Shown one piece after another: positions 3,993 through 62,153 of a stretch of 64,000 nt of DNA. The DNA comes from an uncultured Flavobacteriaceae bacterium. GTDB taxonomy: Bacteria; Bacteroidota; Bacteroidia; Flavobacteriales; Flavobacteriaceae. Position 1 is the stretch's first letter; the number at the start of each line of letters is the position of its first letter. The stretch covers positions 124,001-188,000 of the forward strand of contig CANLXN010000007.1 of the NCBI GenBank assembly GCA_947495135.1, written 5' to 3'. Under the pieces are notes generated by a model. That model did no database searches, was not told where the DNA came from, and worked only from the letters and a program-made list of their open reading frames with translations. The translations under genes were made by a program, and so were the position numbers.

Positions 3993-4016
3993 TTCTTTAA
4001 AGATAAAGAAGATGTT

Positions 4017-4736: not shown

Positions 4737-4751
4737 AGGTAGGAATTCAAA

Positions 4752-5555: not shown

Positions 5556-5557
5556 AG

Positions 5558-6454: not shown

Positions 6455-6492
6455 AGTTTATTTATTGTTTACAACATAAGATACGAACCCAT

Positions 6493-7377: not shown

Positions 7378-7459
7378 AAACTTTTGGCACTTGATCCTTA
7401 TGGTGCCTAACCCGCGTCAAATGTATCGACACCTTGTTAGATTGGAGTGAAGCGTAAGC

Positions 7460-8428: not shown

Positions 8429-8481
8429 ATGTTGTTGACGTGCCTTGTTTAGACAAGGCAAACGATTTAAGTATTAATATT

Positions 8482-9294: not shown

Positions 9295-9297
9295 ATA

Positions 9298-50156: not shown

Positions 50157-50199
50157 GCTAGATCAGATTTTTAATACAAATGATGGCAGCTAATTAACT

Positions 50200-50322
50200 G
50201 CGTTAGGGATAGGAGCGGCATCCTTTTTATAGATCCCTGAGCGGAGGGAAGGGTGAGATAAAAAGATACAGTGGATAGCCTGTTCAAGATCCTGCGACGG
50301 GAGGAGTTGGATCTTGAAACGC
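50200..50322 (+). ncRNA. Structured RNA element, recurrent flavobacterial type
   Basis: Four nested helices are visible: an outer GCGTT/AACGC; GGC-ATCC paired with GGATAGCC; CTTTTTAT/ATAAAAAG enclosing a TCCCT/AGGGA hairpin; and a perfect 10-bp hairpin TTCAAGATCC/GGATCTTGAA. The segment AAAAAGATACAGTGGATAGCC looks like a structured element that I recall from many flavobacterial intergenic regions, but I cannot name its Rfam family with certainty. It stands between the convergent glpKD and RING genes; strand is assumed from the helices. Confidence 0.6.
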
Positions 50323-50357: not shown

Positions 50358-50400
50358 AAAAAAGCCGGGAGTAATTTTTAGTTCCACCCGACCTCTTTTT
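50358..50400 (-). terminator. Terminator at the end of the RING-domain gene
   Basis: On the minus strand GTCGGG and CCCGGC form a 6-bp stem with one G-U pair around a 15-nt loop, followed by TTTTTT. The hairpin overlaps the stop codon of the 750-residue protein gene. Confidence 0.6.
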
Positions 50401-52651
50401 AGTCTAAAAACAATTGTGTGACAGCTGCGCTATTCATAGCCCATTCCAGATCGTATACCTCGTCTGCCATTGTCTGGTCTCCAACCAATTCCAGACCTTG
50501 AGCCTGGGCTTTGGTTGTAAGTAAATTACCTACCGTTAACTTACTGTTCAATTTGGCGATGAGCGCTTCAATGGCAACGGTGTTCATGTTTTGAACCACT
50601 TGTCCGTTAAAACTCATTTCCAACCAAATAATCTCTCTTGCTTTAACATCTAGAACTCCAAAGACCAGGCCTTTAGACATAGTGTTAGTTATGCGTACCT
50701 GATGTTGAACACAAGCAGGGTCGTATGCAACTCCTGTAGTTCGAGAAATACGCATTGGGTGCTTGCTATCCATCCAACCTACTACTAGGTTAGGAGATAG
50801 GCCGCCGTTGGAGTAAGCGTTGCAAGTGAAACTTACGTATTTCGCGTCTCTTGCCGACAGTTTATCTATGTCCATATCAATGTACTCTGCAGTACCTACT
50901 TTTTCTGGAATGCGTTGTATGTCACCGCTGTGTTTACATCCATAGATAGATAATTGTGAATAAGAACAGAATTCAGTCACATGGTTATATGCTACATTAC
51001 AGCTCAAATCCATATCGAGATGCTGTGCTTTGAGACCCTCTCCCCACTGCAAGAACAAACGAATATTGTCGCCCTCTACAGGAAATCGCGTTCCCATTAA
51101 AGCAGACGGCAGATCGTGCACTGTTTCACTTCGATCGCCTATTGCCAGCGGAATGTTAAATAAGCCTTCATCAATGAAAATACTTTTGTTCGTATTCTTT
51201 TCTGCTGAAAATCGTTGCTTCATTGCATCTAAACAAAGGTCTTCGATCTTCATTTTCATGCTTGCGAGCGTTTTATCATCATACAGCTGCACCAATTTGT
51301 TAGCCGTGATCATACGGTTAGTACCTCCTAATGGTTTTACACTTCGCAAAGCGTGTTTATCGAAGTACAGGTCTGCATACATGTTAAGTGTAAATAACAA
51401 TCGTGCAGGAATTTTGTGTACAATTTCGGTAAAGTGCTCAATGGTAACTTCACTTCCAAACCAAAGCATGTTTGAAAACAGCGATCGAGCAAATAGGCCT
51501 GGACGTTCTTTCAATAATGCGAATGTATTTTCTGGGTCGCTTTTCAACTTATAGTGGTTTACTTTTCCTTGCCAAACTTCATAGGTTTGGTTGTAGAAAA
51601 CATCCATAATGTTCGCCAGTTTTTCAAAACCAGGTCGTTTAGCGTATTCAGCCAACCGAAGTGCTCGAATAAATCGGACCCACATGCCTCGTTTTGGGTG
51701 CATGGCCTCACAAGCCTGCTGCGGAGTAAGTTGAAGACCATTTAACCAGATAGCTACTTGTTTACAATCTTTACGAGCGTATTTCAGTTTTAAATCGGCT
51801 TTGGTCTTTAATTTTACACTCCCACTTTGATCTGCTGGGCGAAAAATATTTTGGGCATTCTTTCCCATACGCTTAATGGTTGTTTTGGGTAAAACGATTT
51901 GCAAATACCCTGTGTGTTTGTACCAAAGAAAGCGGAGGATATCGTTGGGATTTACAAAGAGTGACTGAGCTTCATTTCCGCGATTGTTTTCGACCAACGA
52001 ATCTATTACTAGCATGGTGGTTTCCTTCATACCTACTTTTAGTTCTGAAGGCAACTTGTGAATCTTTAAAAGTGTTTTTAAGTTCTCTACCTGAGTTGCA
52101 TCTAAAGCGGTTTTGGAAGTTAATAAATCTGTAAAGCACTTTTCAAGCTCTTTTTCAGTCCAAAGAGACAGGGTCTTAAGTTTGCTAGCCTGATTTTCAT
52201 ACTCAATCTCTCCAAACTCGAAAGGTGTACCACAAAAAGGGCATCCGTTGTATCGTTCCAATGGAAATGTATTATGAGGTATGATATGACCACAAGTTAA
52301 TTGCGTGCCTTTTTTTGTTTGAAAGATATTTCCGAAGAAAGTAATCACATGATCAAAGAGAGTCTCTCCAGTTGGAATATTCCATTCTTTTACTAGCGGG
52401 GTCCAATTCTTATTTACTCCAGTGATTTCTTTTAGTACTTCAAGTATGTCAAGTTTAGAACTTGGGTTTATTTGATTCATCGCCTTTAAAAGTTCTTCTG
52501 AAAATGTGAAGCCTAATTTTGTCGCATTGGCTACTAGCACCAAGGTAGTTTCACTTAACTCGGTTTGTTGATTTGTGATGTGTTCATTTGAAATGAACAC
52601 TGCCTTGTGACGGATGCCCACTTTTAGTAATTCTTTGTTCATTGTATTCAT
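50399..52651 (-). CDS. RING-like zinc ribbon plus TerD-like domain protein of the RNA-repair island
   Basis: A 750-residue protein. A zinc site lies at C120, H122, H126, C137 and C140 (TCGHIIPH...NGCPFCG). A long helical region from about 210 to 520 has HPKRGMWVRFIRALRLAEYA and could be HEAT- or TROVE-like, but I cannot prove this. A TerD-like domain covers about 540-690 (YVSFTCNAYSNGG, IIWLEMSFNGQ). The layout recalls the proteins NCBI names MXAN_6230/SCO0854 family RING proteins. Its transcript seems to begin near 53160 and to carry a 500-nt leader with tRNA-like RNA. It may bind those RNAs or damaged tRNA; this is inference. Confidence 0.7.
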   Translation of the reverse strand: MNTMNKELLKVGIRHKAVFISNEHITNQQTELSETTLVLVANATKLGFTFSEELLKAMNQINPSSKLDILEVLKEITGVNKNWTPLVKEWNIPTGETLFDHVITFFGNIFQTKKGTQLTCGHIIPHNTFPLERYNGCPFCGTPFEFGEIEYENQASKLKTLSLWTEKELEKCFTDLLTSKTALDATQVENLKTLLKIHKLPSELKVGMKETTMLVIDSLVENNRGNEAQSLFVNPNDILRFLWYKHTGYLQIVLPKTTIKRMGKNAQNIFRPADQSGSVKLKTKADLKLKYARKDCKQVAIWLNGLQLTPQQACEAMHPKRGMWVRFIRALRLAEYAKRPGFEKLANIMDVFYNQTYEVWQGKVNHYKLKSDPENTFALLKERPGLFARSLFSNMLWFGSEVTIEHFTEIVHKIPARLLFTLNMYADLYFDKHALRSVKPLGGTNRMITANKLVQLYDDKTLASMKMKIEDLCLDAMKQRFSAEKNTNKSIFIDEGLFNIPLAIGDRSETVHDLPSALMGTRFPVEGDNIRLFLQWGEGLKAQHLDMDLSCNVAYNHVTEFCSYSQLSIYGCKHSGDIQRIPEKVGTAEYIDMDIDKLSARDAKYVSFTCNAYSNGGLSPNLVVGWMDSKHPMRISRTTGVAYDPACVQHQVRITNTMSKGLVFGVLDVKAREIIWLEMSFNGQVVQNMNTVAIEALIAKLNSKLTVGNLLTTKAQAQGLELVGDQTMADEVYDLEWAMNSAAVTQLFLD

Positions 52652-52707
52652 ATTTTAAAATTAATAAATTAGGTAATCTTGCTTCTGGTCTACCTAAAAG
52701 AGTGTTT

Positions 52708-52977
52708 GAAGTAAGAAGCAATTGACCTTAATTAAAAAGGTAATTTAAAGACTAATATTACCAGCACCTCCCATGCGGGAAGCTAGGAATCGAACCTAGG
52801 GAAGTAAGTCTTTATTGACCAATTTTGTGAGGCAGGCAGGACTCGAACCTGCGACCTGGGCGTTATGAGCGCTGTAGTAAGCGTATATTGACCATGGTGA
52901 TTTTTAAACAGTATCTTGGACTCGAACCAAAAGCCTCCGCTGGAGACCCTGCCTGTTGTAGTATGTTTAAGTTGACC
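52708..52977 (-). repeat. Four 20-nt direct repeats interspersed with tRNA fragments
   Basis: On the plus strand the unit reads G-W-AGTAWG-N6-DTTGACC and occurs at 52708, 52801, 52874 and 52958 with periods of 93, 73 and 84 nt. The spacing is about one tRNA. In each unit the minus strand gives GGTCAA, 8 nt, TACT. The sequences between repeats carry T-arms or half tRNAs. The pattern is not a CRISPR (four units, variable repeats, tRNA-like spacers). Confidence 0.7.
52739..52820 (-). ncRNA. Circularly permuted tRNA-like RNA domain
   Basis: Minus strand. An outer helix pairs 52807-52814 with 52746-52753 (8 bp) and extends through a bulged C to GGT/ACC. Inside it are a perfect T-arm (CTAGG, TTCGATT, CCTAG), an acceptor-like stem CTTCCC/GGGAGG closed by a GCAT tetraloop, and a D-loop-like GCTGGTAATATT. 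The anticodon stem is thus the open end and the acceptor end is the closed one, the reverse of a normal tRNA gene. Bacterial Y RNAs of the YrlA type mimic tRNA in a similar way. It lies in the leader of the RING gene. Confidence 0.65.
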
Positions 52978-53057
52978 TTACTTAGCATATTCACCATATG
53001 CAAGCTTTTTGGGTAATTTATATGCTGACCTGCTCTAACCATCTGAGCTACTGCCTC
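52828..53057 (-). tRNA. tRNA-Met(CAT) split by a 156-nt insertion in the anticodon stem
   Basis: Exon 1 is 53057-53029 (GAGGCAG acceptor, D-arm GCTC/GAGC, then A and GG). Exon 2 is 52872-52828 (GCG, loop CTCATAA, CGCCC, variable AGGTC, T-arm GCAGG/CCTGC, acceptor CTGCCTC, A73). Joined, all four stems pair completely (7, 4, 5 and 5 bp) and the anticodon is CAT. The split between nt 28 and 29 is unique because the GG of exon 1 is needed to pair with CC of CGCCC. Nothing in the insertion resembles a group I or II core. Two RtcB ligases are encoded in the same island. Confidence 0.78.
52873..53028 (-). other. Insertion inside tRNA-Met, with Y-RNA-like helix and extra T-arm domain
   Basis: The 156 nt begin TCAGCATATAAATTACC and end TTACTACA. 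Segment 53012-53025 pairs with 52881-52893 through ACC/GGT, a bulged C, TT/AA, a two-nt bulge and TATA. An alternative partner is GGTCAACTTA at 52968-52977. Between them are a hairpin GCATAT/ATATGC and a second domain at 52907-52957 closed by AACAG/CTGTT, with a GTCTCC/GGAGGC hairpin and a T-arm TTGG, TTCGAGT, CCAA. The domain has no matching 5' half, so it is a 3' tRNA-like half. Confidence 0.6.
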
Positions 53058-53066
53058 GTTTATTTT

Positions 53067-53126
53067 GCGGGTAATGGTAAAAGTAAGTTCGTTAGGATGA
53101 ATTGAAGTAACTCTTACTTGACCCGC
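53067..53126 (-). ncRNA. Hairpin RNA with bulged-C helix at the start of the RING leader
   Basis: Minus strand. GCGGGT at the 5' end pairs with ACCCGC at the 3' end (6 bp), then a bulged C, AA/TT, and GTAAG/CTTAC beyond an 8-nt internal loop. This is the same GGTCAA/TTACC motif as in the tRNA-Met insertion and the permuted tRNA-like domain, but in a stand-alone hairpin, 30-90 nt after the presumed transcription start. Confidence 0.6.
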
Positions 53127-53166
53127 ATTTTTGTATGTATAAGAACGTTGTTTTGTATTGATAGTA

Positions 53167-53205
53167 CAAAGATGTTTAATTACTACGCAGTGTTTTTGCG
53201 TAGTA
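53167..53205 (-). promoter_or_regulatory. Promoter P5 with palindromic operator for the tRNA-Met/RING transcript
   Basis: On the minus strand TACTACGCA, 7 nt, TGCGTAGTA (53205-53181) is followed after exactly 6 nt by CATCTTTG (53174-53167), a -7-like element. No TTTG stands at -33; the palindrome covers that place. The promoter of rtcB1 has the same palindrome, the same 7-nt gap and the same 6-nt distance. Confidence 0.75.
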
Positions 53206-53214
53206 AATTTTTAG

Positions 53215-53286
53215 AAGGAATAGCGAGACTCGAACTCGCATCTGCCGGATCGTACCCGGGAGTTTTTCCAATTAAACTATATTCCT
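53215..53286 (-). tRNA. tRNA-Arg(ACG)-like, last gene of the array
   Basis: 72 nt. Acceptor AGGAATA/TATTCCT (7 bp), D-arm AGTT/AACT with GG in the loop, anticodon loop GTACGAT reading ACG on a stem of 4 bp, T-arm GCGAG, TTCGAGT, CTCGC. Discriminator T. No CCA is encoded. The first base is A rather than G, and the anticodon loop begins with G32, both unusual. Confidence 0.75.
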
Positions 53287-53291
53287 ATTTT

Positions 53292-53364
53292 GGGTGACTT
53301 CGGGATTCGAACCCTGTACTCCTCATTCACAGCGAGGTATTTTACCACATAAACTAAAGTCACC
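53292..53364 (-). tRNA. tRNA-His(GTG)-like
   Basis: 73 nt. Acceptor GGTGACT/AGTCACC (7 bp) with C73, as in His tRNAs, D-arm GTTT/AAAT-type, anticodon stem CCTCG/TGAGG with loop CTGTGAA (GTG). The T-stem has only 3 good pairs (CAGGG against CCCGA). No encoded G-1 is clear. It is a divergent copy. Confidence 0.72.
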
Positions 53365-53373
53365 ATTTTATTA

Positions 53374-53390
53374 GAAAACCCGATAGGACT
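53374..53390 (-). repeat. 17-nt duplicate of the tRNA-Gln 3' end
   Basis: GAAAACCCGATAGGACT occurs here and at 53465-53481, where it is the 3' end of tRNA-Gln. The 74 nt between the copies (53391-53464) show no tRNA fold. It is either a tRNA remnant or a target duplication at a tRNA 3' end. Confidence 0.6.
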
Positions 53391-53465
53391 TCCTGATTCG
53401 TTCCTCCTCTTGTCGGCACTACTCAGGACAGGCTTCTCATCCAATCCTATTGCGTCTTATTCTGG

Positions 53466-53538
53466 AAAACCCGATAGGACTCGAACCTATACCTCAGGAG
53501 TCAAATTCCTGTATGCTTACCGATTACATCACGGGCTT
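53466..53538 (-). tRNA. tRNA-Gln(TTG)-like
   Basis: 73 nt. Acceptor AAGCCCG/CGGGTTT (7 bp, one G-U), D-arm ATG/CAT with GG in the loop, anticodon arm CAGGA, ATTTGAC, TCCTG (anticodon TTG), T-arm ATAGG, TTCGAGT, CCTAT. Its 3' end is duplicated 91 nt downstream. Confidence 0.78.
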
Positions 53539-53543
53539 ATTAG

Positions 53544-53617
53544 TACTCCACCCAAGATTCGAACTTGGACTACACGGGGCTTAAACCCGATGCCTCTGCC
53601 AATTGGGCTAGTGGAGC
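53544..53617 (-). tRNA. tRNA with Leu anticodon TAA on a short-variable-loop body
   Basis: 74 nt. Acceptor GCTCCAC/GTGGAGT (7 bp), D-stem GCC/GGC, anticodon loop TTTAAGC (TAA, reads TTA), T-arm CCAAG, TTCGAAT, CTTGG. The variable loop is 5 nt (GTAGT). Normal Leu tRNAs have a long variable arm, so charging by LeuRS is doubtful. Confidence 0.72.
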
Positions 53618-53621
53618 GTAG

Positions 53622-53695
53622 TACGAGAAGAGGGAGTCGAACCCTCAGGGATCCTGTTTCTAAAACAGGCGCGTTTACCGTTTCGCCATTCTCGC
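53622..53695 (-). tRNA. tRNA with Leu anticodon TAG on a short-variable-loop body
   Basis: 74 nt. Acceptor GCGAGAA/TTCTCGT, D-stem GCG/CGC with GG in the loop, anticodon arm CCTGT, TTTAGAA, ACAGG (TAG, reads CTA), T-arm GAGGG, TTCGACT, CCCTC. The variable loop is 6 nt, so this too lacks the long arm expected of a Leu tRNA. It is 4 nt from the next array gene. Confidence 0.74.
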
Positions 53696-53705
53696 AATTA
53701 TTTAG

Positions 53706-53777
53706 TACTCCGTAAGGGAATCGAACCCTTAATTCCTGATAGAAAGTCAGGCGTCTTAGCCGTTTGACCAACGGAGC
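53706..53777 (-). tRNA. tRNA-Glu(TTC)-like
   Basis: 72 nt. Acceptor GCTCCGT/ACGGAGT (7 bp with one G-U), D-stem GTC/GAC with CGG in the loop, anticodon arm CCTGA, CTTTCTA, TCAGG (TTC), T-arm AAGGG, TTCGATT, CCCTT, discriminator A. One of the best-formed members of the array. Confidence 0.8.
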
Positions 53778-53783
53778 ATTTTG

Positions 53784-53869
53784 TCTGGGAGCTGGTCCCG
53801 ATAGCTATCGGGACGAACCTGCAACCTCCGGCATCCAAAGCCGGTAAACAACCATAGTTATCTTCCCAG
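53784..53869 (-). pseudogene. tRNA-Pro(TGG)-like gene with a palindrome inserted in the T-arm
   Basis: 86 nt. Acceptor CTGGGA/TCCCAG, a perfect anticodon arm CCGGC, TTTGGAT, GCCGG (TGG), then GCAGGTTCG followed by the 18-nt palindrome TCCCGATAGCTATCGGGA and CCAGC. The palindrome is of a type that is abundant between genes in flavobacteria. It breaks the T-loop, and the D-loop is only 4 nt, so the RNA is unlikely to work as a normal tRNA, although the anticodon arm is intact. Confidence 0.65.
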
Positions 53870-53874
53870 TAAAA

Positions 53875-53952
53875 TAGTACCGATCCCTCATGAAGAGGAA
53901 TGCCACCGAGAGACAGTCGGTTTGCTGGTCATATTGAAATGACCACGGTACT
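53875..53952 (-). tRNA. Cloverleaf-shaped RNA with Asp anticodon GTC, lacking T-loop and D-loop consensus
   Basis: 78 nt. Acceptor AGTACCG/CGGTACT (7 bp). The D-side arm is a 7-bp hairpin TGGTCAT/ATGACCA, longer than a D-stem and without GG in a D-loop. Anticodon arm ACCGA, CTGTCTC, TCGGT gives GTC but T37 replaces a purine. The T-side arm is a 7-bp hairpin with a TTCAT loop in place of TTCRANY. All four arms form, but the tertiary contacts of a tRNA do not. Better read as a tRNA mimic. Confidence 0.6.
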
Positions 53953-53956
53953 TTTG

Positions 53957-54091
53957 TGGAAGTAGTAGGACTCGAACCTACAAGCTATTAATAGACCAGA
54001 TTTTAACTCACCCTTGCTATTTGTAAATAGGATTCGTTGAATGATGAAAATCATTTCAGTCTGGCGAGCCAACCGATTGCTCAACACTTCC
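53957..54091 (-). tRNA. tRNA-Phe(GAA)-like gene with an insertion of about 52 nt at position 37/38
   Basis: 135 nt. Acceptor GGAAGTG/TACTTCC, D-arm GAGC/GCTC, 5' anticodon strand CCAGA with CTGAAA, then 54053-54002, then A and TCTGG, T-arm GTAGG, TTCGAGT, CCTAC. Removing the insertion gives loop CTGAAAA and a perfect 5-bp stem, identical to the ordinary tRNA-Phe loop at 62.3 kb. The insertion holds hairpins ATGAT/ATCAT and CTATTT/AAATAG and is far too short for a group I intron. The variable region is 14 nt with a small palindrome CTATTAATAG. Confidence 0.72.
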
Positions 54092-54098
54092 AAATTAG

Positions 54099-54170
54099 AG
54101 ACAAGGATGAGAATCGAACTCATAAATAACAGATTTGCAGTCTGCCGCCTTCCCATTCAGCCACCTTGTC
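54099..54170 (-). tRNA. tRNA-Cys(GCA)-like
   Basis: 72 nt. Acceptor GACAAGG/CCTTGTC (7 bp), T8, D-arm GCT/GGC, anticodon arm GCAGA, CTGCAAA, TCTGT (GCA), T-arm ATGAG, TTCGATT, CTCAT, discriminator T as in Cys tRNAs. It looks complete and near-normal. Confidence 0.82.
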
Positions 54171-54175
54171 TTTTG

Positions 54176-54262
54176 CGGAGAGCAAAGGAATCGAACCTTC
54201 ACCACGGTTAAATGGACTTGATTAGCAGTCAAGCGTAACGAACCAGTATTTACCTACTCTCC
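54176..54262 (-). tRNA. tRNA-Ser(GCT)-like, first gene of the array
   Basis: 87 nt. Acceptor GGAGAGT/GCTCTCC (7 bp), D-arm GTAA/TTAC with GG in the loop, anticodon arm CTTGA, CTGCTAA, TCAAG (GCT), a variable arm of about 16 nt as expected for Ser, T-arm GAAGG, TTCGATT, CCTTT, discriminator G. It lies 12 nt after the terminator of leader module P1. Confidence 0.8.
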
Positions 54263-54274
54263 AAAATTTCTTCA

Positions 54275-54305
54275 TAAAAAAAGCACCTCTTTTTGGGAGG
54301 TGCTT
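54275..54305 (-). terminator. Terminator/attenuator of leader P1, before the tRNA array
   Basis: Minus strand AAGCACCTC, 7-nt loop, GAGGTGCTT (9 bp) and then TTTTTT. It stands between the 42-codon ORF and tRNA-Ser, so array transcription from P1 needs readthrough. Confidence 0.8.
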
Positions 54306-54329
54306 CGGTATTGTAATGCCAGAATTATT

Positions 54330-54458
54330 TCATTCCATGGCGTACCTTTTCTCCCCATTTAAATAATTGGACTCTTCATAACTATGCAGCTGATCCAACC
54401 CTTGCGGCGACCGGAGGCATTGTTCTACTATTAATTGAGATTTGTTATGAGTTGTCAT
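54330..54458 (-). CDS. Short leader ORF of module P1 (42 codons)
   Basis: MTTHNKSQLIVEQCLRSPQG then LDQLHSYEESNYLNGEKRYAME. It begins about 40 nt after promoter P1 and ends 25 nt before the terminator that precedes the tRNA array. It may be a leader peptide. A longer in-frame start at 54533 lies upstream of the promoter and is unlikely. Translation is not proven, and the antiterminator pairing is weaker here (GGGAG with CTCCC). Confidence 0.45.
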   Translation of the reverse strand: MTTHNKSQLIVEQCLRSPQGLDQLHSYEESNYLNGEKRYAME

Positions 54459-54502
54459 CTGTTTTGTTTTTAATCGTTTTGTTTTAATTGTTTTCAACGG
54501 TG

Positions 54503-54534
54503 CAAATATGAATCCTATTTTTGAATTATACAAA
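54503..54534 (-). promoter_or_regulatory. Promoter P1, upstream of the tRNA array
   Basis: Minus strand TTTG (54534-54531), 20 nt, CATATTTG (54510-54503). P2 in front of rtcB2 has the same boxes, the same spacing and largely the same flanks (ACGGTGCAAATATG on the plus strand). Confidence 0.7.
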
Positions 54535-54724
54535 TAAAATAGAATATTAATTAATTGATTATCAAATAGTTGCGTTCATTTTAGGCATAAGAATCCCTGT
54601 CCGTGTTTTTACGGATATTCAAGTTTTTCGCAACCGACTGTCTCCCAATTGTTTTCTCTTTCAACTATCTTATTTTATGGGCTCTAACTATTCAGCATTT
54701 ATTTTAAAAATTTTGCATAAAAAA

Positions 54725-54746
54725 AGCGTCCATTCTATTGGACGCT
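54725..54746 (-). terminator. Terminator/attenuator of leader P3
   Basis: Minus strand AGCGTCC, an 8-nt loop and GGACGCT, then TTTTTTT. The 5' arm AGCGTCC can also pair with GGACGCT at 54807-54813 inside the short ORF, which would prevent the terminator. Confidence 0.8.
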
Positions 54747-54781
54747 CGCTATTCTATGTTGATTCTAGTTTAAAATCATTA

Positions 54782-54901
54782 CTAAAACTGATTCAAATAG
54801 GCATAAAGCGTCCTCTCTCGTCCAAATAATTGTTCTATCTGGCGATATTTGCACTGGCTCGGCAGTGAATGGGATACCATATGTTTATTCCTGTGTTTCA
54901 T
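54782..54901 (-). CDS. Short leader ORF of module P3 (39 codons)
   Basis: MKHRNKHMVSHSLPSQCKYR then QIEQLFGRERTLYAYLNQF, rich in His, Arg and Lys. The ATG is about 10 nt from the -7 box, so the message would be almost leaderless. Codons AGG-ACG-CTT contain GGACGCT, complementary to the terminator 5' arm 61 nt further on. This is the arrangement of a translation-coupled attenuator. No family is recognised. Confidence 0.5.
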   Translation of the reverse strand: MKHRNKHMVSHSLPSQCKYRQIEQLFGRERTLYAYLNQF

Positions 54902-54910
54902 TTTGTGTTG

Positions 54911-54943
54911 CAAATATGAGGGAATTGATCCCTTTATTCCAAA
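54911..54943 (-). promoter_or_regulatory. Promoter P3, after the rtcB2-prfH-TPR operon
   Basis: Minus strand TTTG (54943-54940), 21 nt, CATATTTG (54918-54911). P4 at 58.3 kb has the same boxes and spacing, and both share the upstream run CAAATTTATTTTTTTG on the plus strand next to the preceding stop codon. Confidence 0.7.
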
Positions 54944-54944
54944 T

Positions 54945-55529
54945 TTATTTTTTTGACGATTTTTTCTTCTTCTTGGATTTCTTAGAAGATTTGTTTTTTT
55001 TCTTTTTTTTGGACTTCTTGGTCTTCTTTGGTTTTTCTAATTTGATTTTCTTTTTGATTCTACGTTCTTCTTCCTCCATAAATTCAAAATAGTGGTCATT
55101 GTATACCTTCAGCTTGGCTTTTTTTAAAATCTTAAGGCACTTCTTATAGTTGCCCTTGATTTCTTCCGCATAAGAAGAAAGCCAAAGTAGTTGTCCCCCG
55201 TCAATTGTTTTTATGGATAAAGCAAAGTCAATTAATTTTTCTGCTCGTTCAATTTCGTTCGCCCAAATAAGGTATTTTATATAGATTGGATATACGTCTT
55301 CGTAATTAGTGTCTACTGCGATTACCCTGTCAAAACATTCATAAGCCTGTTCGTGCATGGATAAATTTTTGGCGTAGATTTCCCCAAGAAGACATAAGGA
55401 TGCACAGTGATTCTCATCGTAGGACAATGCGTAGTTTAATCCTTCACATACCTCCTCCCAGTCGCTCACAAAACCCCCAGTTGCGGCTTTCGCTTTTAGA
55501 TAGTAACTATCTGCTGTTGTTAATCCCAT
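54945..55529 (-). CDS. TPR-like protein with a lysine-rich tail
   Basis: A 194-residue protein. Residues 1-145 form TPR-like helical pairs (CLLGEIYAKNLSMHEQAYEC, YIKYLIWANEIERAEKLIDF, EEIKGNYKKCLKILKKA). The last 45 residues are almost only Lys and Ser, a likely RNA- or ribosome-binding tail. Its start overlaps the prfH stop by 10 nt, so it is the third member of the rtcB2 operon. A role as a docking factor for the repair of tRNA or ribosomes fits but is inference. Confidence 0.75.
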   Translation of the reverse strand: MGLTTADSYYLKAKAATGGFVSDWEEVCEGLNYALSYDENHCASLCLLGEIYAKNLSMHEQAYECFDRVIAVDTNYEDVYPIYIKYLIWANEIERAEKLIDFALSIKTIDGGQLLWLSSYAEEIKGNYKKCLKILKKAKLKVYNDHYFEFMEEEERRIKKKIKLEKPKKTKKSKKKKKNKSSKKSKKKKKSSKK

Positions 55530-56230
55530 TGTTTCTTCTTTAAATCGTTTTTAACTTTTTGTCGCTTTGTTTTATGCGTCTCCGCTTTCTTTTTTTGTTT
55601 GAAATCGGTTCCTCTAAATATTCTAGTTGGGTTTCCTCTGCTTAGTTGCAAGTGATTTTCCCACTGGTCTTCGATGTGTTTTTTTACATTCTCCCAGTGC
55701 GCTTCCTTCAATTTTATCGTCAAACGTTCTATGGCGAGCTTCTTGTTTTGGTGCTGAGACCTGCTATCCATTACCACTACACAAACACCACTTGGAAGAT
55801 GGGTTGCTCGAACGGCTGAATTCACTTTGTTCACATTCTGTCCGCCTGGTCCAGTACTTCTCATGGCTTGAAATTTGAATTCGTTTGGATTTATTTTTTC
55901 TTCTGAAAGTGTATCCAACGAATAAACTCCTATAAACCAGTTTTTACGTCTGTGATGTTTTCTGAATTTAGATGTTCCAATCCACTGAATAGTTCCAATC
56001 CAAGTTTTCAAAAAGTCTGAATTTTGATCACCAATTATCTTGATGGTAGTGGACTGAACCGTTCCATTCTCAGGTCCCGGAGTATGACTTACAATTTCAT
56101 GATGGAATCCCTTTTCTTTTAATTCTGAAATAAATGCCTTCACTACTTTGGCCACAACCCAACAACACTCTGCAGGTCCTCGACCTGCGGTGAATTGTAA
56201 GAGTGCTGTATTTTTATTTGTCTGTTTCAT
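55520..56230 (-). CDS. prfH: Peptide chain release factor homologue PrfH
   Basis: A 236-residue class I release-factor-like protein without the usual stop-codon recognition domain. The peptidyl-hydrolysis loop STGPGGQNVNKVNSAVRATH with GGQ is near residue 130. The N-terminal TAGRGPAECCWVVAKV and FRKHHRRKNWFIGVY match PrfH. The C-terminus is basic. PrfH works with RtcB2 on ribosomes cut in the decoding centre: it frees the nascent chain so that the ligase can reseal 16S rRNA. It is encoded 3 nt after rtcB2, the usual order. Confidence 0.92.
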   Translation of the reverse strand: MKQTNKNTALLQFTAGRGPAECCWVVAKVVKAFISELKEKGFHHEIVSHTPGPENGTVQSTTIKIIGDQNSDFLKTWIGTIQWIGTSKFRKHHRRKNWFIGVYSLDTLSEEKINPNEFKFQAMRSTGPGGQNVNKVNSAVRATHLPSGVCVVVMDSRSQHQNKKLAIERLTIKLKEAHWENVKKHIEDQWENHLQLSRGNPTRIFRGTDFKQKKKAETHKTKRQKVKNDLKKKQWD

Positions 56231-56233
56231 TTG

Positions 56234-57625
56234 TTAACGGTCCATTCGGACGATTTTTGGTGTGAATGTTCCAATCACCTCAACAAGTTCTCGTTGGTTA
56301 TTCATCACTTTTTTAATATTCTTATAGGCCATTGGTGCCTCATCTATGCCTCCTCCAATGAGAGTAACTCCATAATCTGCGAGCTCTTTTTTGATCTCGC
56401 TACGCGTAAAGTTCTCCTTGCATTTCCGTCTAGAAAATAAGCGCCCTGCTCCGTGTGATGCCGACTGTAAACTGTCTGCATTTCCTTTGCCTCGAACTAT
56501 ATATCCTGGAGCCGTCATAGAACCTGGAATAATCCCTAATTCTCCTTCGGCAGCCGGCGTAGCTCCTTTTCGGTGGACGATACATTCTTGTCCGTTCACC
56601 TGCTGTTTCCATGCAAAATTGTGATGATTCTCAATTTTCGCAATGGGTTTGGAGCCTAGCAACTTTCCGAGGCGTGCATGAATATCGTCATGACATGCCT
56701 GGGCATAATCTCCAGCTAAATTCATAGCTAGCCAGTATTCCTGTCCGTCGTGTGTATTCAAATCCAGCCACGCCAATTGTTGTACGTGCTTCGGTAAGGG
56801 AGTTTGTTTGGTTGCCAGATACGTATAATGTTTGGCTATGTTTGCTCCCAGACCTCGCGATCCACTATGCGTAAGCAACCCAATGTATTCTCCAACGTCT
56901 AAATCCCATTCGTTGTTGATATCGGTAATGGTTACTGTTCCAAATTCTACGAAGTGATTTCCACCTCCCGAAGTACCCAACTGTTTATAAGCTTTGTCTT
57001 TCAGTCTTTTTACCAGAGGAATGGTTTTAAACTCGTCTCTGGAAAAAACTTCATGGTCATGCTTAACTTTATGAGTTTCGTACATTCCAAATTTGGTGTG
57101 CTCAGATAAAAAGTTGCTTAATTGGTGACTCTTTCCCTTCAAATAGGAGGTTTTGATAGGGTAGATGGTTAGGCACATTCTGCATCCAATATCTACACCA
57201 ACGCCGTATGGAATAACTGCATTTTTGGTAGCTAATACACCTCCTATGGGCAATCCATATCCTACATGTGCGTCTGGCATCAATGCGCCCGCAACTGCAA
57301 CAGGTAATTTCAATGCGTCATAAAGCTGGTATTTTGCTTGCTCGTCAATTTCATTTTCTCCGTAGATTTGGAAAGGTGCACGTGTATTGTTTAATGCATG
57401 TTTTTTCACTTCTACTGGATCCAATAAACTCTCAGCGATCTTACCCCAAACTCCGTCTCCTTTATAATCTTGAGGATGTAATAAAACTTGTTTGGCTTCT
57501 ATTAATATTTGTTCTTTTTTCTTGCGTTTTTGATAGCGATTGATCTGGCCTAATGCCACATTAATGCTATTGTTTTTTGGAAAGCCTAATTTGATCAGGT
57601 CTTTTCCAGATAATTTCTTTCCCAT
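56234..57625 (-). CDS. rtcB: RNA-splicing ligase RtcB, RtcB2 type partnered with PrfH
   Basis: A 463-residue RtcB. Metal and GMP-site motifs are LMPDAHVGYGLPIGGVLATK near residue 115, GVDIGCRM with the metal Cys near 143, TSGGGNHFVEFG near 218, HSGSRGLGANIAKHY near 252 and the guanylated-His motif SHGAGRLFSRRK near 395. It joins 3'-phosphate (or cyclic phosphate) and 5'-OH RNA ends with GTP and Mn. It is the first gene of the rtcB2-prfH-TPR operon, behind leader P2. It clearly differs from the second RtcB encoded here. Confidence 0.93.
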   Translation of the reverse strand: MGKKLSGKDLIKLGFPKNNSINVALGQINRYQKRKKKEQILIEAKQVLLHPQDYKGDGVWGKIAESLLDPVEVKKHALNNTRAPFQIYGENEIDEQAKYQLYDALKLPVAVAGALMPDAHVGYGLPIGGVLATKNAVIPYGVGVDIGCRMCLTIYPIKTSYLKGKSHQLSNFLSEHTKFGMYETHKVKHDHEVFSRDEFKTIPLVKRLKDKAYKQLGTSGGGNHFVEFGTVTITDINNEWDLDVGEYIGLLTHSGSRGLGANIAKHYTYLATKQTPLPKHVQQLAWLDLNTHDGQEYWLAMNLAGDYAQACHDDIHARLGKLLGSKPIAKIENHHNFAWKQQVNGQECIVHRKGATPAAEGELGIIPGSMTAPGYIVRGKGNADSLQSASHGAGRLFSRRKCKENFTRSEIKKELADYGVTLIGGGIDEAPMAYKNIKKVMNNQRELVEVIGTFTPKIVRMDR

Positions 57626-57724
57626 GATGTTATGGTGTTAAATTTTAGATGTGTTTGTCTTGTGCCGGCACTCCAATTGGAGCAGGCACCATCGGTCGAT
57701 TTTTAGACAAATAGGCGAATAAAA

Positions 57725-57758
57725 AAAGTCCGAAACTTTTAATAAGACTTCGGACTTT
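57725..57758 (-). terminator. Terminator/attenuator of leader P2, before rtcB2
   Basis: Minus strand AAAGTCCGAA, 14-nt loop, TTCGGACTTT and a T tract. The 5' arm contains TCCGAAG, which is complementary to CTTCGGA at 57796-57802 inside the short ORF. It lies 100 nt ahead of the rtcB2 start. Confidence 0.82.
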
Positions 57759-57761
57759 CAT

Positions 57762-57863
57762 TCAACATAACAGAATTGTTACATGGGAGAAAATTTCCGA
57801 AGCAACCACACATAAGAACCTAGTTCTTTTAATGTGATTAGAGATGAATTGTAAAAGGTCATG
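57762..57863 (-). CDS. Short leader ORF of module P2 (33 codons)
   Basis: MTFYNSSLNHIKRTRFLCVV then ASEIFSHVTILLC. It begins about 55 nt after promoter P2 and stops 3 nt before the terminator stem. Codons GCT-TCG-GA carry CTTCGGA, the complement of the terminator 5' arm. A ribosome stalled early would leave this segment free to pair and would open the way to rtcB2. Translation is not proven. Confidence 0.5.
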   Translation of the reverse strand, partial: HDLLQFISNHIKRTRFLCVVASEIFSHVTILLC

Positions 57864-57924
57864 CTACTTCGTTTTATAGATTAATATTTTCTGTGGTGTC
57901 TAGTACTTTAAGTCTAAGACGGTG

Positions 57925-57956
57925 CAAATATGTGGAAGACTTTTGAATTACACAAA
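57925..57956 (-). promoter_or_regulatory. Promoter P2 of the rtcB2-prfH operon
   Basis: Minus strand TTTG (57956-57953), 20 nt, CATATTTG (57932-57925). The region matches P1 base by base over much of its length. Confidence 0.7.
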
Positions 57957-58134
57957 TAAAATTCAAATTTAATTTACTGACAATCAATTAGTTATGCTGA
58001 TTTTAGAATGCAGGATTCCTGTCCGTATTTTACAGAAAGTCCTAGTGATTTGTAATCACTTGTATGGCCGTGGATTAGCTGTCAAACTACTAATTGAAAT
58101 AGTTTTAGGCATATGGCTAAAAAAAGCATAAAAA

Positions 58135-58160
58135 AAAGCGTCCAATTTCTTGAACGCTTT
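58135..58160 (-). terminator. Terminator/attenuator of leader P4
   Basis: Minus strand AAAGCGTTC, 8-nt loop, GGACGCTTT (one U-G pair) and a T tract. The 5' arm AGCGTTC pairs without any mismatch to GAACGCT at 58219-58225 in the short ORF, so the antiterminator pairing is better than the terminator stem itself. Confidence 0.8.
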
Positions 58161-58185
58161 TACTATTTCTGATCTTTTTAGACAA

Positions 58186-58251
58186 TTACCCATGCACACG
58201 ATGGAAAAATAGCTTTGCAGCGTTCCTTTTATGTGAGTGAAATAGCGTCAT
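58186..58251 (-). CDS. Short leader ORF of module P4 (21 codons)
   Basis: MTLFHSHKRNAAKLFFHRVHG, with four His and several Lys/Arg. It begins about 30 nt after promoter P4. Codons AGG-AAC-GCT contain GAACGCT, complementary to the terminator 5' arm. It is the shortest of the four leader ORFs. Confidence 0.45.
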   Translation of the reverse strand: MTLFHSHKRNAAKLFFHRVHG

Positions 58252-58282
58252 ATAGATATTGTTTTTTTGTTTTTGTTCTATG

Positions 58283-58315
58283 CAAATATGGCAATATTAG
58301 TTAATTGCCTCCAAA
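58283..58315 (-). promoter_or_regulatory. Promoter P4, after the rtcB1 operon
   Basis: Minus strand TTTG (58315-58312), 21 nt, CATATTTG (58290-58283). Same boxes and spacing as P3. Confidence 0.7.
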
Positions 58316-58328
58316 TTTATTTTTTTGC

Positions 58329-58889
58329 TTACCAAAACTGGTACCACGGTTTGGGTGTCTTTGCCTTTATTTGAAAGACTTTTTTCTTTGATAATCCGCT
58401 GATAAGGAAATCAACTTTTTCTTTTACCGACTTCTCTTTTGATAACTCTAATATGGTTTCAGCTTTCAATTTAGCCTTTGCCATGCAGTCGGAGTTTTGG
58501 TTCATTCTTGCTCTAAAGGTTGAGAAGCACTCTTCTAAAAAATAAAATTCAGTGGTAAGTTCAAAAACATCATCCCAATCATGCAGATAACTCAATTCTA
58601 TCACTATTCTCTCTGCTTGATCAAAATTGTCGGTCAATTTCAATTCACGACATCCTTTTTCGATCTTTGCCATAAGTACTTCAGCAGGACCTAGAGTTTT
58701 AGTGGCATAATTTGCTAGGGACTCTAAAATATCTGAGCTTTTGAAATTTAGTGTGTACAAATCATATATCGAAGAATCTTTGTCTATTAATTCGATAAGT
58801 TCGGTATTGGCATAGAGCCATTCCTCAAATGCCGAAACTTCCATTGCTCCAGCAAGTACTTGATATAATTTTTCTTTTAATGTTTCCAT
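58329..58889 (-). CDS. Protein of unknown function downstream of rtcB1
   Basis: About 186 residues from METLKEKLYQVLAGAMEVSA; the in-frame ATG at 58955 would overlap rtcB1 and I reject it. The protein is mostly helical and acidic (FEEWLYANTELIELID, SDILESLANYATKTLGPAEV), with a short basic end KTPKPWYQFW. The early EEWLYAN-type helices recall some immunity-like small proteins, but I make no assignment. It is 28 nt after the rtcB1 stop and is probably co-transcribed. Promoter P4 begins 14 nt after its stop. Confidence 0.7.
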   Translation of the reverse strand: METLKEKLYQVLAGAMEVSAFEEWLYANTELIELIDKDSSIYDLYTLNFKSSDILESLANYATKTLGPAEVLMAKIEKGCRELKLTDNFDQAERIVIELSYLHDWDDVFELTTEFYFLEECFSTFRARMNQNSDCMAKAKLKAETILELSKEKSVKEKVDFLISGLSKKKVFQIKAKTPKPWYQFW

Positions 58890-58917
58890 TTGGTTAGTAT
58901 TTGAGGGTAGGCAATTC

Positions 58918-60355
<1,438 letters not shown>

Positions 60356-60399
60356 GCTCCTTGAAATCTTTTTAATAGATTTCTTTCTGATACCTGGGA

Positions 60400-60441
60400 C
60401 AAATATTGGAAGCTACTACGCAATCTTTTTGCGTAGTAGCT
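60400..60441 (-). promoter_or_regulatory. Promoter P6 of rtcB1 with a palindromic operator
   Basis: Minus strand TACTACGCA, 7 nt, TGCGTAGTA (60438-60414), then 6 nt and AATATTTG (60407-60400). The palindrome extends to a perfect 13-bp repeat (60411-60441). Core, gap and distance to the -7 box equal those of promoter P5. It lies between rtcB1 and the divergent HD-WYL genes, so the WYL protein is the obvious candidate binder. Confidence 0.75.
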
Positions 60442-60472
60442 TTAATTGTGTATTTTTCTAAAAAATTATTGC

Positions 60473-61126
60473 ATGACTCTAAGAAGCCGTTTTGAAAGCC
60501 TGCTGAAACTTTATACAAGTGATACCAATCTCATCAACGAATTTTGGGCGGTACTGATAAAGAACTATTCTCAGAAGTTTAGGGCATATCACAATACCGG
60601 TCATTTGAAGGAACTCTTCAATTATTTTGATGTTTACAAAGAACGGTTGGAGCATCCTTCGGAAGTGACTTTGGCTATTTTCTATCATGACATTATATAT
60701 AGTATTTGGAAGAAAGACAATGAAGAACAAAGTGCCGTCTTGGCAGGAGAGCATTTACACAGATTGCAAGTTTCCGCCCTATCAGCAGAAGGGTTGGCAT
60801 TGGATGAAGCTTCGATAGAACGAATTAAGACTCATATTTTGGCGACTAAAACGCACAAAGCGGTTCATGAAGATACCAAGTGGATGGTGGATTTTGATCT
60901 GGCTGTTTTGGGTCAGACACCAGACGAATACCTTGCATATGCGAAAAACATTCGGAAAGAGTACAGGAAGATTCCTTTGGTATTGTACCGTCCAGGACGC
61001 AAGAAGGTGCTAGCACATTTTCTAGCCAAACAGCACATTTACGCCACGAGAGAATTTCAGAATACCTACGAAGAACAGGCCAGAGAAAACCTGTCCAGAG
61101 AATTGGCATCCATTCAAATTAATTAA
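60473..61126 (+). CDS. HD-domain phosphohydrolase-like protein
   Basis: About 217 residues from MTLRSRFESLLKLYTSD; a TTG 27 nt upstream is in frame but less likely. The HD-type metal site shows AYHNTGHLKELF near residue 40 and LAIFYHDIIYSIWKKDNEEQS near 70, followed by IKTHILATKTHK and VDFDLAVLGQTPDEY. Proteins of this kind are predicted metal-dependent hydrolases of unknown substrate. It is encoded 1 nt before the WYL regulator gene, forming a two-gene transcript divergent from rtcB1. It could process a nucleotide or RNA end, but nothing here shows it. Confidence 0.82.
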   Translation: MTLRSRFESLLKLYTSDTNLINEFWAVLIKNYSQKFRAYHNTGHLKELFNYFDVYKERLEHPSEVTLAIFYHDIIYSIWKKDNEEQSAVLAGEHLHRLQVSALSAEGLALDEASIERIKTHILATKTHKAVHEDTKWMVDFDLAVLGQTPDEYLAYAKNIRKEYRKIPLVLYRPGRKKVLAHFLAKQHIYATREFQNTYEEQARENLSRELASIQIN

Positions 61127-61127
61127 T

Positions 61128-62153
61128 ATGGCACTCAATAAAAATGCACTCATTCGGTATAAAACCATCGACAAATGTCTTCAGAACAAGTATCGAGATT
61201 GGACATTACAAGACTTGATTGATGCATGCTCTGATGCACTGTACGAATACGAGGGAAGAGAAGTGAACGTGAGTAAGCGAACCATTCAGTTGGATATACA
61301 GATGATGCGTAGTGACAAGTTGGGTTATAATGCGCCCATTGTAGTTGTAAACAAGAAATTTTACTGTTACGAAGCCCCCGATTATTCGATTACCGATATT
61401 CCCATTACCGAGAACGACATGAGTGTTTTGTCTGAAACGGTTGAAATGTTGAAGCAATTCAAGGATTTTTCACTGTTTTCAGAATTAGGTGGGATCATCC
61501 AGCGTTTGGAAGACAAAGTTTATACCGAGAAAACACATCGATCTGCGGTTATTCATCTCGATAATAATGAGAATTTAAAGGGTCTGCAGCATTTGGATGT
61601 ATTATATCAAGCAATTATTAAGAAGTTAGTTTTGAAAATTAACTATCAGTCTTTTACTGCGCGAAAGCCTGGGGTCATCACTTTTCATCCTTTTATATTA
61701 AAGGAGTTCAATAATAGGTGGTTTTTGGTGGGGAGATCGAGTAGAACCATGAACATTCAGACGTTGGCCTTGGACCGAATGGTTGGGATCGATTATGATT
61801 TAAACATACCTTACAATGACGAGGATTTTAACGGAGATGAATATTATAAAAATACCATAGGTGTGACCGTGCTTAATGACGACCAGTTACAAGAAGTAGT
61901 TTTAAAAATTGAGCGAGGTAATGCGCCTTATGTATTGACCAAACCTTTTCATCACTCTCAGGAATTGCTGGAGCAGTTTGAGGATAGAAGCATCATGATT
62001 AAACTCCATGTACACCTTAATTTAGAATTGGAGCGATTGATTTTAGGCTTCGGTGATGCTATTGAGGTAGTGAAGCCAAGATTACTTCGGAAAAGGATAC
62101 GGCAAAAGTTAAAGCGGGCTGTTGAGGTTTATGGGGAGGGTGAGAATGTTTAA
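61128..62153 (+). CDS. WYL-domain transcriptional regulator
   Basis: A 341-residue protein. A winged HTH covers about residues 1-75 (TLQDLIDACSDALYEYEGRE, VSKRTIQLDIQMMRSD). The WYL domain covers about 160-240 (LKINYQSFTARKPGVITFHP, EFNNRWFLVGRS, IQTLALDRM), and a WCX-like C-terminal extension follows. WYL regulators often bind nucleic-acid-like ligands and control stress or defence genes. It is divergent from rtcB1 and adjacent to the palindrome at 60.4 kb, so I infer that it binds the shared TACTACGCA-N7-TGCGTAGTA site. Confidence 0.87.
   Translation: MALNKNALIRYKTIDKCLQNKYRDWTLQDLIDACSDALYEYEGREVNVSKRTIQLDIQMMRSDKLGYNAPIVVVNKKFYCYEAPDYSITDIPITENDMSVLSETVEMLKQFKDFSLFSELGGIIQRLEDKVYTEKTHRSAVIHLDNNENLKGLQHLDVLYQAIIKKLVLKINYQSFTARKPGVITFHPFILKEFNNRWFLVGRSSRTMNIQTLALDRMVGIDYDLNIPYNDEDFNGDEYYKNTIGVTVLNDDQLQEVVLKIERGNAPYVLTKPFHHSQELLEQFEDRSIMIKLHVHLNLELERLILGFGDAIEVVKPRLLRKRIRQKLKRAVEVYGEGENV

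Follow-up and report, generated by a model that had tools for sequence, protein, structure and literature searches.

Comparison of the Island with Described RNA-Repair Systems

Among the described systems, the trn array of Anabaena is the nearest functional precedent for the locus analysed here, an RNA-repair island of an uncultured Flavobacteriaceae bacterium that combines rtcB and prfH genes with an array of tRNA-like genes and a gene encoding a RING/TerD protein. The island occupies positions 50,399 to 62,153 of a stretch of 64,000 nucleotides (nt) (positions 124,001 to 188,000 of contig CANLXN010000007.1, assembly GCA_947495135.1; 4.29 Mb in 45 contigs), referred to as the window. In Anabaena, a silent array of 26 tRNAs is turned on by translational stress or translation-targeting antibiotics, and the array, rtcB, and a slipin gene are co-repressed by TrcR (PMC10272220). 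The likeness lies in the extra tRNA array and in the joining of rtcB with a slipin (SPFH) gene in one regulon; however, the Anabaena loci are scattered and controlled by a ribbon-helix-helix repressor (PMC10272220), whereas the window genes are clustered and their control looks like leader-peptide attenuation. The window also carries RING/TerD where its sister loci have an SPFH protein, and adds prfH.

Other parts of the island have counterparts elsewhere. The RtcB2-PrfH operon of E. coli ATCC 25922, which protects against colicin E3, has rtcB2 adjoining prfH as in the window (PMC9223846), although the main text of that report does not contain the words "tRNA array", "attenuat", "leader", or "Bacteroid". 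The Salmonella rsr-yrlBA-rtcBA system, in which rtcBA responds to damaged tRNAs, joins an RtcB repair operon to a tRNA-like noncoding RNA in a similar way (PMC7790460); it differs in its control by the CARF activator RtcR and in its RNA and protein partners, no Ro/TROVE being recognised in the island. tRNA arrays of Mycobacterium avium have been termed putative antidefence units (PMC12803027). Band-7/SPFH RtcB systems resemble the sister loci of the window, which have Band-7-like genes downstream of the array and tRNA-like RNAs, whereas the window itself has RING/TerD, a different tRNA-like RNA, and a different motif. Burroughs and Aravind reportedly described Band-7 with a novel tRNA-like molecule in RtcB systems in 2016, an account that may already cover some of the RNA side. 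To our knowledge, bacterial detection of cut tRNAs is known in few cases, such as RtcR-CARF in Salmonella. No report of leader attenuation of rtcB or of tRNA arrays was found in the open-licence literature, outside of which most subscription papers lie. Attenuator sensing and the RNA linked to RING/TerD appear to be new, and related systems exist.

On the minus strand, the island runs in the order rtcB1, a gene of 208 amino acids (aa), a leader cassette, rtcB2-prfH-TPR, a second leader cassette, the tRNA array, a tRNA-like RNA, and RING/TerD (750 aa), with an HD-like and a WYL gene divergent from it on the plus strand. An initial annotation made from the sequence had suggested that these genes and RNAs may form one defence module, whose array would supply decoys or replacements for cut tRNAs; all the parts it named are present, at about the positions where it placed them. 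The island is probably an inducible translation-rescue module under ribosome-mediated transcription attenuation. Two operons would be controlled, one formed by rtcB2-prfH-TPR and the other by the tRNA array, probably with RING/TerD, each led by two short open reading frames (ORFs) in series that end just before an intrinsic terminator. When tRNAs are plentiful, the ribosome would reach the end of the ORF and mask a segment able to pair with the 5' arm of the terminator, resulting in termination; when a tRNA is cut or uncharged, an early stall of the ribosome would let this segment pair with the 5' arm, and the RNA polymerase would read through. Shortage of any sampled tRNA could in this way open one or both attenuators. 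The transcribed output would comprise backup tRNAs for much the same amino acids as the leaders sample, presumably charged and nuclease-resistant; RtcB2 and PrfH, for release and repair of damaged ribosomes or RNA; and the RING/TerD protein, with the tRNA-like RNA as a putative scaffold. A fuller version is put forward tentatively, as plausible rather than probable: a self-sensing replacement system in which the leaders carry a panel of codons and the loss of any tRNA calls up spare tRNAs, ligase, rescue factor, and a RING/TerD ribonucleoprotein formed on the tRNA-like RNA, its repeated motif being protein-binding.

If true, bacteria would have a previously undescribed means of detecting RNA damage and living through it. 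An attenuator with a multi-codon leader and replacement tRNAs under its control would sense damage directly and independently of the nuclease, and would counter tRNA-cutting toxins and defence nucleases in general. The attenuator reading also gives a testable prediction for each codon and suggests a function for orphan tRNA arrays.

Leader Cassettes and Their Distribution

One cassette lies 5' of rtcB2-prfH-TPR and one 5' of the array, both with the order ORF A, terminator, element M, ORF B, terminator. The features of this part of the island are as follows, where complementarity is that of the leader to the 5' arm of its terminator.

58186..58251, minus strand: ORF A of the rtcB2 leader cassette (21 codons), with its terminator at about 58135-58160; complementarity p=0.004
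57952..58087, minus strand: element M of the rtcB2 cassette; model R1, E 6e-21, this copy being among the 13 rows of the model
57779..57862, minus strand: ORF B of the rtcB2 leader cassette (27 codons), with its terminator at about 57725-57758; complementarity p=0.018
56234..57625, minus strand: rtcB2; PF01139, 279 bits against a cut-off of 27
55520..56230, minus strand: prfH; TIGR03072, 235.8 bits against a cut-off of 166.65; GGQ motif in the translation
54945..55529, minus strand: TPR-like protein; weak TPR_8 match
54782..54901, minus strand: ORF A of the array leader cassette (39 codons), with its terminator at about 54723-54747; antiterminator segment p=0.006
54529..54663, minus strand: element M of the array cassette; model R1, E 3.5e-23, this copy being among the model's own rows
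54330..54458, minus strand: ORF B of the array leader cassette (42 codons), with its terminator at about 54280-54306; complementarity p=0.874

Element M contains the conserved sequences GGACAGG and AACTAATTGATNATCA. Its model, R1, was built from 13 cassettes including both window copies and was kept sequence-only because RNAalifold yielded no structure for the element. In the host genome, R1 finds two copies, both within the island. Matches occur in 17 of 120 Flavobacteriaceae genomes, with 19 copies below an E of 1e-7 in 14 of them. Nearly all of these strong copies (18 of 19) precede rtcB2, with or without prfH and TPR, a TPR gene, or a tRNA array, as named by comparison with the window genes; leaving out the two window copies, which are rows of the model, 16 of 17 precede rtcB2, a TPR gene, or tRNAs. 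The remaining strong copy (genome G365) is followed by a 570-aa gene without a match to the window genes, and three weak matches (G298, G309, and G410; E 5e-5 to 7e-4) had no window genes in the stretch read.

The order cassette-rtcB2-prfH-TPR-cassette-array of loci L163 and L166 is identical to that of the window. L167 differs in having two other genes between rtcB2 and prfH and no detected TPR gene; it, too, has one cassette before rtcB2 and another between prfH and the array. Across the 120 genomes, prfH scored above its cut-off in eight, and the cassette stands beside it in five. Six M loci (L163, L164, L165, L166, L168, and L173) encode a 365-367-aa protein downstream of the array or the rtcB2 set, at the position of RING/TerD, and the two of these proteins searched against Pfam matched Band-7/SPFH. 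At the corresponding position downstream of the window array there is no Band-7/SPFH gene, RING/TerD being found there instead. In eight Flavobacterium loci with RING/TerD, a leader pair lies some 7-10 kb downstream of that gene, and M was found in seven. In the one of these eight that was read (L082, 19753-22229), a double leader cassette lies 5' of a 171-aa gene and an RNase_T exonuclease; therefore, the cassette may control a wider RNA regulon.

An ORF with a terminator, as picked by script, is present on 64 of the 68 sides of 34 cassettes, with a gap of 10-38 nt between the two; the cassette of L105, which has no M match, was positioned by hand. Short ORFs ending just before an intrinsic terminator, the first hallmark of an attenuator, are thus a regular part of the cassette. 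Scanning the island and 80 other RING/TerD loci, described below, for a leader ORF with a terminator and a promoter-like site gave 36 rows, of which 31 lie in cassettes or in locus L111 (28 distinct ORFs) and five elsewhere. The array of L111 (23 tRNAs), where no M element was detected, stood outside the leader tests.

Tests of Ribosome-Mediated Attenuation

Leader ORFs often hold a segment complementary to the 5' arm of the terminator, for example AGGACGCTTT at codons 29-32 of window leader A. Of 20 leaders, among them L065 A with its poor terminator pick, 10 surpass shuffled sequences in this complementarity at p<0.05. The combined p is about 3e-11, which overstates the effect because all leaders are related by descent and the p values are therefore optimistic. 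In a stall model, the ribosome was placed at each codon and the pairing of the terminator 5' arm with the upstream sequence was scored, seven near-duplicate Flavobacterium cassettes (14 leaders) having been removed before this test and the amino-acid count. Across the 50 leaders, the 5' arm pairs upstream at 85% of first-half codons and 12% of last-quarter codons, versus 52% and 22% in shuffles (Wilcoxon p about 1e-7); leader B of the window array gave patchy antiterminators. For the 50 leaders taken together, the model points to an antiterminator alternative that is set by the position of the ribosome.

The codons of the leaders were compared with the amino acids served by the arrays. Codon 7 encodes His in 20 of the 25 A leaders and in 11 of the 25 B leaders. 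The leaders contain more Q, H, F, and E, and less V, T, and I, than expected from base composition. The eleven amino acids served by the first arrays occur 1040 times in leaders versus 903 expected, and A, G, T, V, W, and K, missing from the first nine arrays, 339 times versus 439 expected. There are exceptions: G alone is not depleted, D is served yet not enriched, and later arrays do include K and W. The more arrays serve an amino acid, the more it tends to be enriched in the leaders (rank correlation rho 0.72, p 0.0003). In addition, the match of leaders to their own array is closer than that to swapped arrays (13 loci, permutation p 0.0008). These comparisons suggest that the leader codons match the controlled product, with a modest effect. 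A raw amino-acid bias relative to the proteome was set aside, much of it being that of any AT-rich random ORF.

Attenuators classically sense uncharged tRNA, which would also suit an ordinary stress regulon, in which the leaders sense general amino-acid starvation or ribosome-targeting antibiotics and the tRNAs merely raise translation capacity. The induction of the Anabaena array by translation-targeting antibiotics would be a parallel (PMC10272220). However, the leaders sample many amino acids and not one, and the genes after the strong cassette matches, named by likeness to window genes, encode RNA ligase, TPR protein, or tRNAs in all but one case, so that such a regulon is considered improbable.

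The tRNA Array

The array contains eleven tRNA-like genes, in agreement with the initial annotation: eight intact ones reported by ARAGORN, and three interrupted or altered ones (Tyr, Asp-like, and Pro) that were identified by visual comparison with intact counterparts from other arrays.

53214..54262, minus strand: tRNA array with intact Ser(GCT), Cys, Glu, Leu(TAG), Leu(TAA), Gln, His, and Arg(ACG); ARAGORN
53956..54091, minus strand: interrupted tRNA-Tyr; insert of about 52-53 nt in the anticodon loop; labelled Leu by ARAGORN with introns
53876..53952, minus strand: tRNA-Asp-like gene with altered D and T arms, by eye; acceptor and anticodon arm resemble the Asp genes of L163 and L166
53784..53869, minus strand: tRNA-Pro with the T loop interrupted by a palindrome, by eye

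A whole-genome search gave at least 42 tRNA matches (150 of 328 candidates scored), eight of them in the array, and host tRNAs were found with the anticodons of all eight intact array tRNAs; therefore, the array is surplus to the host set. Its tRNAs are 79-95% identical to the best tRNA with the same anticodon from another array, and 53-73% identical to the best host tRNA for the same amino acid (seven of eight compared; host Cys lay outside this comparison, made when 30 of the 42 genome matches had loci). The T-loop consensus is kept in 118 of 129 tRNAs from 14 arrays versus 23 of 28 host tRNAs, and the D-loop GG in 126 of 129 versus 27 of 28, counts that cover ARAGORN-detected tRNAs and whose detection itself favours such tRNAs. 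Across the 14 arrays, the commonest members are Gln (11 arrays), Glu and Leu TAG (10), Arg ACG, Pro, and Phe (9), and Ser GCT, His, Tyr, and Asp (8). Ala, Gly, Thr, and Val tRNAs occur only in the array of L111, a Bacteroidia contig from a metagenome-assembled genome with 23 tRNA calls at 3969-9577, a near-complete set, upstream of a RING/TerD gene. Judged by their sequences, with cloverleaf, T loop, D-loop GG, and anticodon kept in eight of the eleven here, the array tRNAs appear to be of functional type.

Some array members are unusual. The array of L051 includes one with a UCA anticodon, which would read UGA; that of L048 has a Leu-like body carrying an Ile(UAU) anticodon (by eye); and those of L061, L098, and L116 each have a tRNA-like gene with a two-base anticodon call, "???(at)". 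Members of the latter kind, and the Asp-like and Tyr genes here, lack a usable anticodon or T loop and would be in keeping with decoys that soak up an anticodon nuclease while the ligases repair the host tRNAs and the leaders act as an incidental stress attenuator. The chimeric L048 tRNA and the absence of an anticodon arm from the tRNA-like RNA described below point the same way, and a role of YrlA as a competitive inhibitor has been discussed as one possibility (PMC7790460). Against a decoy role, most of the array tRNAs reported by ARAGORN look functional, and the leader codons follow the amino acids served, which decoys would not need. Decoys are accordingly judged unlikely, and of the two roles proposed initially, replacement fits better, because anticodon, T loop, and G18G19 are mostly kept, the array tRNAs match those of other genomes, and the leaders favour the same amino acids.

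The insert of tRNA-Tyr is not present in the intact Tyr genes of L048, L050, L163, L166, and L167, and is therefore likelier to be an insertion than a spliceable intron. The palindrome TCCCGATAGCTATCGGGA lies at 53796-53813 within the T loop of tRNA-Pro, and a near-identical palindrome at the 5' end of the array tRNA-Pro of L166 suggests recurrent insertion at the same tRNA. At 53375-53450, a second 3' end of tRNA-Gln is fused to a repeat-like stretch and is apparently a remnant (by eye). The three interrupted or altered tRNAs, the truncated Gln, the palindromic insertion, and the patchy occurrence are features that a decaying mobile remnant would also show, with the array and leaders as relics travelling with rtcB. 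However, the high identity to other arrays, the covarying RNAs, and the presence of the cassette in 14 of 120 genomes make this explanation very improbable; the decay that the initial annotation had named as a possible refutation is partial, confined to three of the eleven genes.

The RING/TerD Protein and Its tRNA-Like RNA

The third part of the island comprises the RING/TerD gene and the RNAs directly upstream of it.

52828..53057, minus strand: tRNA-like RNA with a repeated motif in place of the anticodon arm; covariation and conservation 5' of the RING/TerD gene
52672..53123, minus strand: tract of five GGUCAA-helix-UACUUC...AUUACC motifs, two of which lie inside the tRNA-like RNA
50399..52651, minus strand: RING/TerD protein, 750 aa; weak RING match, TerD-like fold

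The RNA directly 5' of the RING/TerD gene has a 7-bp acceptor stem, a D arm, and a T arm; where an anticodon arm would be, it carries the GGUCAA-helix-UACUUC...AUUACC motif, commonly permuted. By a strict search, it is present in 74 of 79 loci with upstream sequence, the window counted (L079, L101, L111, L114, and L119 were missed, and the pick in L049 is apparently mis-registered). What had been annotated as a split tRNA-Met is better read as this conserved RNA. Toward the start codon of RING/TerD, the motif recurs on the same strand, a locus commonly holding three to five copies in total, as found by a pattern and pairing scan in which some copies had no detected partner strand and three stray cores lay on the minus strand. 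Of four exact motif cores in the host genome, three lie in the island; a backward control pattern is found once. Alignment of the last motif copy (27 loci of 28 tried) showed 98.9% of cells paired and 7 of 13 pairs changed on both sides, and that of the tRNA-like RNA (18 chosen of the 74) 97.3% paired and 15 of 29 pairs changed on both sides; each result was matched in 0 of 500 shuffles. The several structured RNAs initially noted in the island correspond to this motif tract and to the leader cassettes with their terminators. The analysis thus defines an RNA family tied to RING/TerD proteins.

Within the window, no Rfam match exceeded the cut-off for the tRNA-like RNA, the motif, or the leaders, the only island matches being tRNAs; in four relatives, the tRNA-like RNA was caught by the Rfam tRNA model (44.8-50.7 bits). 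Among 17 loci read around M matches, the motif occurs only in L169, which is the contig of L048 and carries RING/TerD. Other long RNAs with tRNA-like ends are seen by eye at the Band-7 loci L163 (7345-8250) and L164 (3050-4900), with large inserts and unlike the RING/TerD-linked RNA, and also at the Band-7-like locus L165.

The RING half of the protein name corresponds to a sub-threshold match (Prok-RING_4, 21.2 bits against a cut-off of 27) and to C120, H122, C137, and C140, which are invariant in 30 sequences. The TerD label is supported by the predicted fold: Foldseek ranks two TerD-like structures first for the AlphaFold2 model (mean pLDDT 79), both with a probability of 1.00 and TMt values of 0.62-0.63, but with E values of only about 6e-3 to 8e-3, and no match of this model reaches an E of 0.001. 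The MXAN_6230/SCO0854 family RING protein (NF041916) matches residues 14-688 with an E of 2.7e-38, but at 131.7 bits against a cut-off of 600, which makes the window protein only a distant relative.

Homologues of RING/TerD were found in 8 of 296 genomes of the phylum (host counted), all from one family, in 21 of 72,556 plasmid records, and in 7 of 50,697 phage records. A collection of named genomes gave 125 relatives, from Flavobacterium, Aquimarina, Tenacibaculum, Saprospiraceae, Cytophagales, Hymenobacter, and others, the best 80 of which were kept as comparison loci with flanks of up to 10 kb, some contigs being short. Near the gene, these 80 loci encode WYL in 57, the HD homologue in 49, and RtcB in 40 (8 rtcB1-like and 32 rtcB2-like); all three are missing in 20, several of them short contigs. 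At least two same-strand tRNAs lie upstream of RING/TerD in ten (L048, L050, L051, L056, L061, L065, L098, L105, L111, and L116). The full set of the window, with prfH and RING/TerD together, was not met again among the 80. The single module proposed initially, and the co-occurrence expected of it, are therefore supported for the repair genes and the array, whose order recurs in other genomes, and not for RING/TerD. No link of the island to a particular anticodon nuclease was found, and no test aimed at one was made. The role of the RING/TerD protein with its RNA, possibly as a scaffold or stress sensor, is the least supported step of the proposed mechanism.

Evidence Opposing the Attenuation Reading

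Several results count against an attenuated rescue module. Ten of the 20 leaders fail the simple complementarity test, including leader B of the window array (p=0.874); a promoter-like site of the Bacteroidota type lies within 120 bases before only 36 of 64 leader ORFs; and the choice of leader ORFs and terminators by script favours their detection. The amino-acid effect corrected for base composition is about 15%, the fit of leaders to their own array is above the mean of the others in only 9 of 13 loci, and selection on the leader peptides at the protein level is weak (65 synonymous among 198 single-base codon changes). Three of the eight prfH genomes have no cassette. One locus has prfH-TPR, two tRNAs, and rtcB1 (L187), and the other two have rtcB2, prfH, and TPR with no tRNAs found over the length read (L188, on a contig of 5.8 kb, and L189). 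Three of the eleven array genes of the window are interrupted or altered. In addition, neither prfH nor a related TPR gene was found in any of the 80 other RING/TerD loci, so the place of RING/TerD in the module is taken from the window only.

Repair, Rescue and Regulator Proteins

The remaining genes of the island are the following.

58918..60306, minus strand: rtcB1, divergent RtcB-type RNA ligase; PF01139, 128 bits against a cut-off of 27; start codon uncertain, ORF open to 60336
58329..58955, minus strand: 208-aa gene after rtcB1, family unassigned; ORF, with a 156-aa ORF at the same place in L163
60473..61126, plus strand: HD-like protein, divergent from rtcB1; label by eye, start codon uncertain
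61128..62153, plus strand: WYL-domain regulator; WYL and WCX above cut-off

The identification of two RtcB ligases and PrfH is borne out by the curated cut-offs, all of which are exceeded: the Pfam RtcB domain scores well above 27 bits in both ligases, and PrfH reaches the equivalog score of TIGR03072. The rtcB2 of the window is 85% identical to its syntenic counterpart in L163. TPR matches of the protein encoded at 54945..55529 are weak; in other genomes, relatives of its gene stand after rtcB2, after prfH, or after the cassette. The 208-aa gene had no Pfam match above cut-off and no NCBIfam match. Of the divergent HD-WYL pair noted initially, the WYL protein is clear, with both of its domains above the Pfam cut-off, whereas the HD-like protein had no match in Pfam or NCBIfam and its label comes from inspection by eye. 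PADLOC found no known anti-phage system among eight island proteins; only two WYL models and a Cas3c model matched, all on the WYL protein. A Ro/Y RNA particle was considered and rejected, with no Pfam TROVE match at an E up to 1 and none by sequence profile, and no Ro60-like fold among the Foldseek matches listed (best 50 of 643).

Next to the island, positions 46989-50156 hold a single ORF of 1055 aa, apparently a fusion of glycerol kinase and FAD glycerol-3-phosphate dehydrogenase (by eye), and positions 50192-50289 match the Flavo-1 RNA, with a score of 43.2 versus a gathering score of 42.

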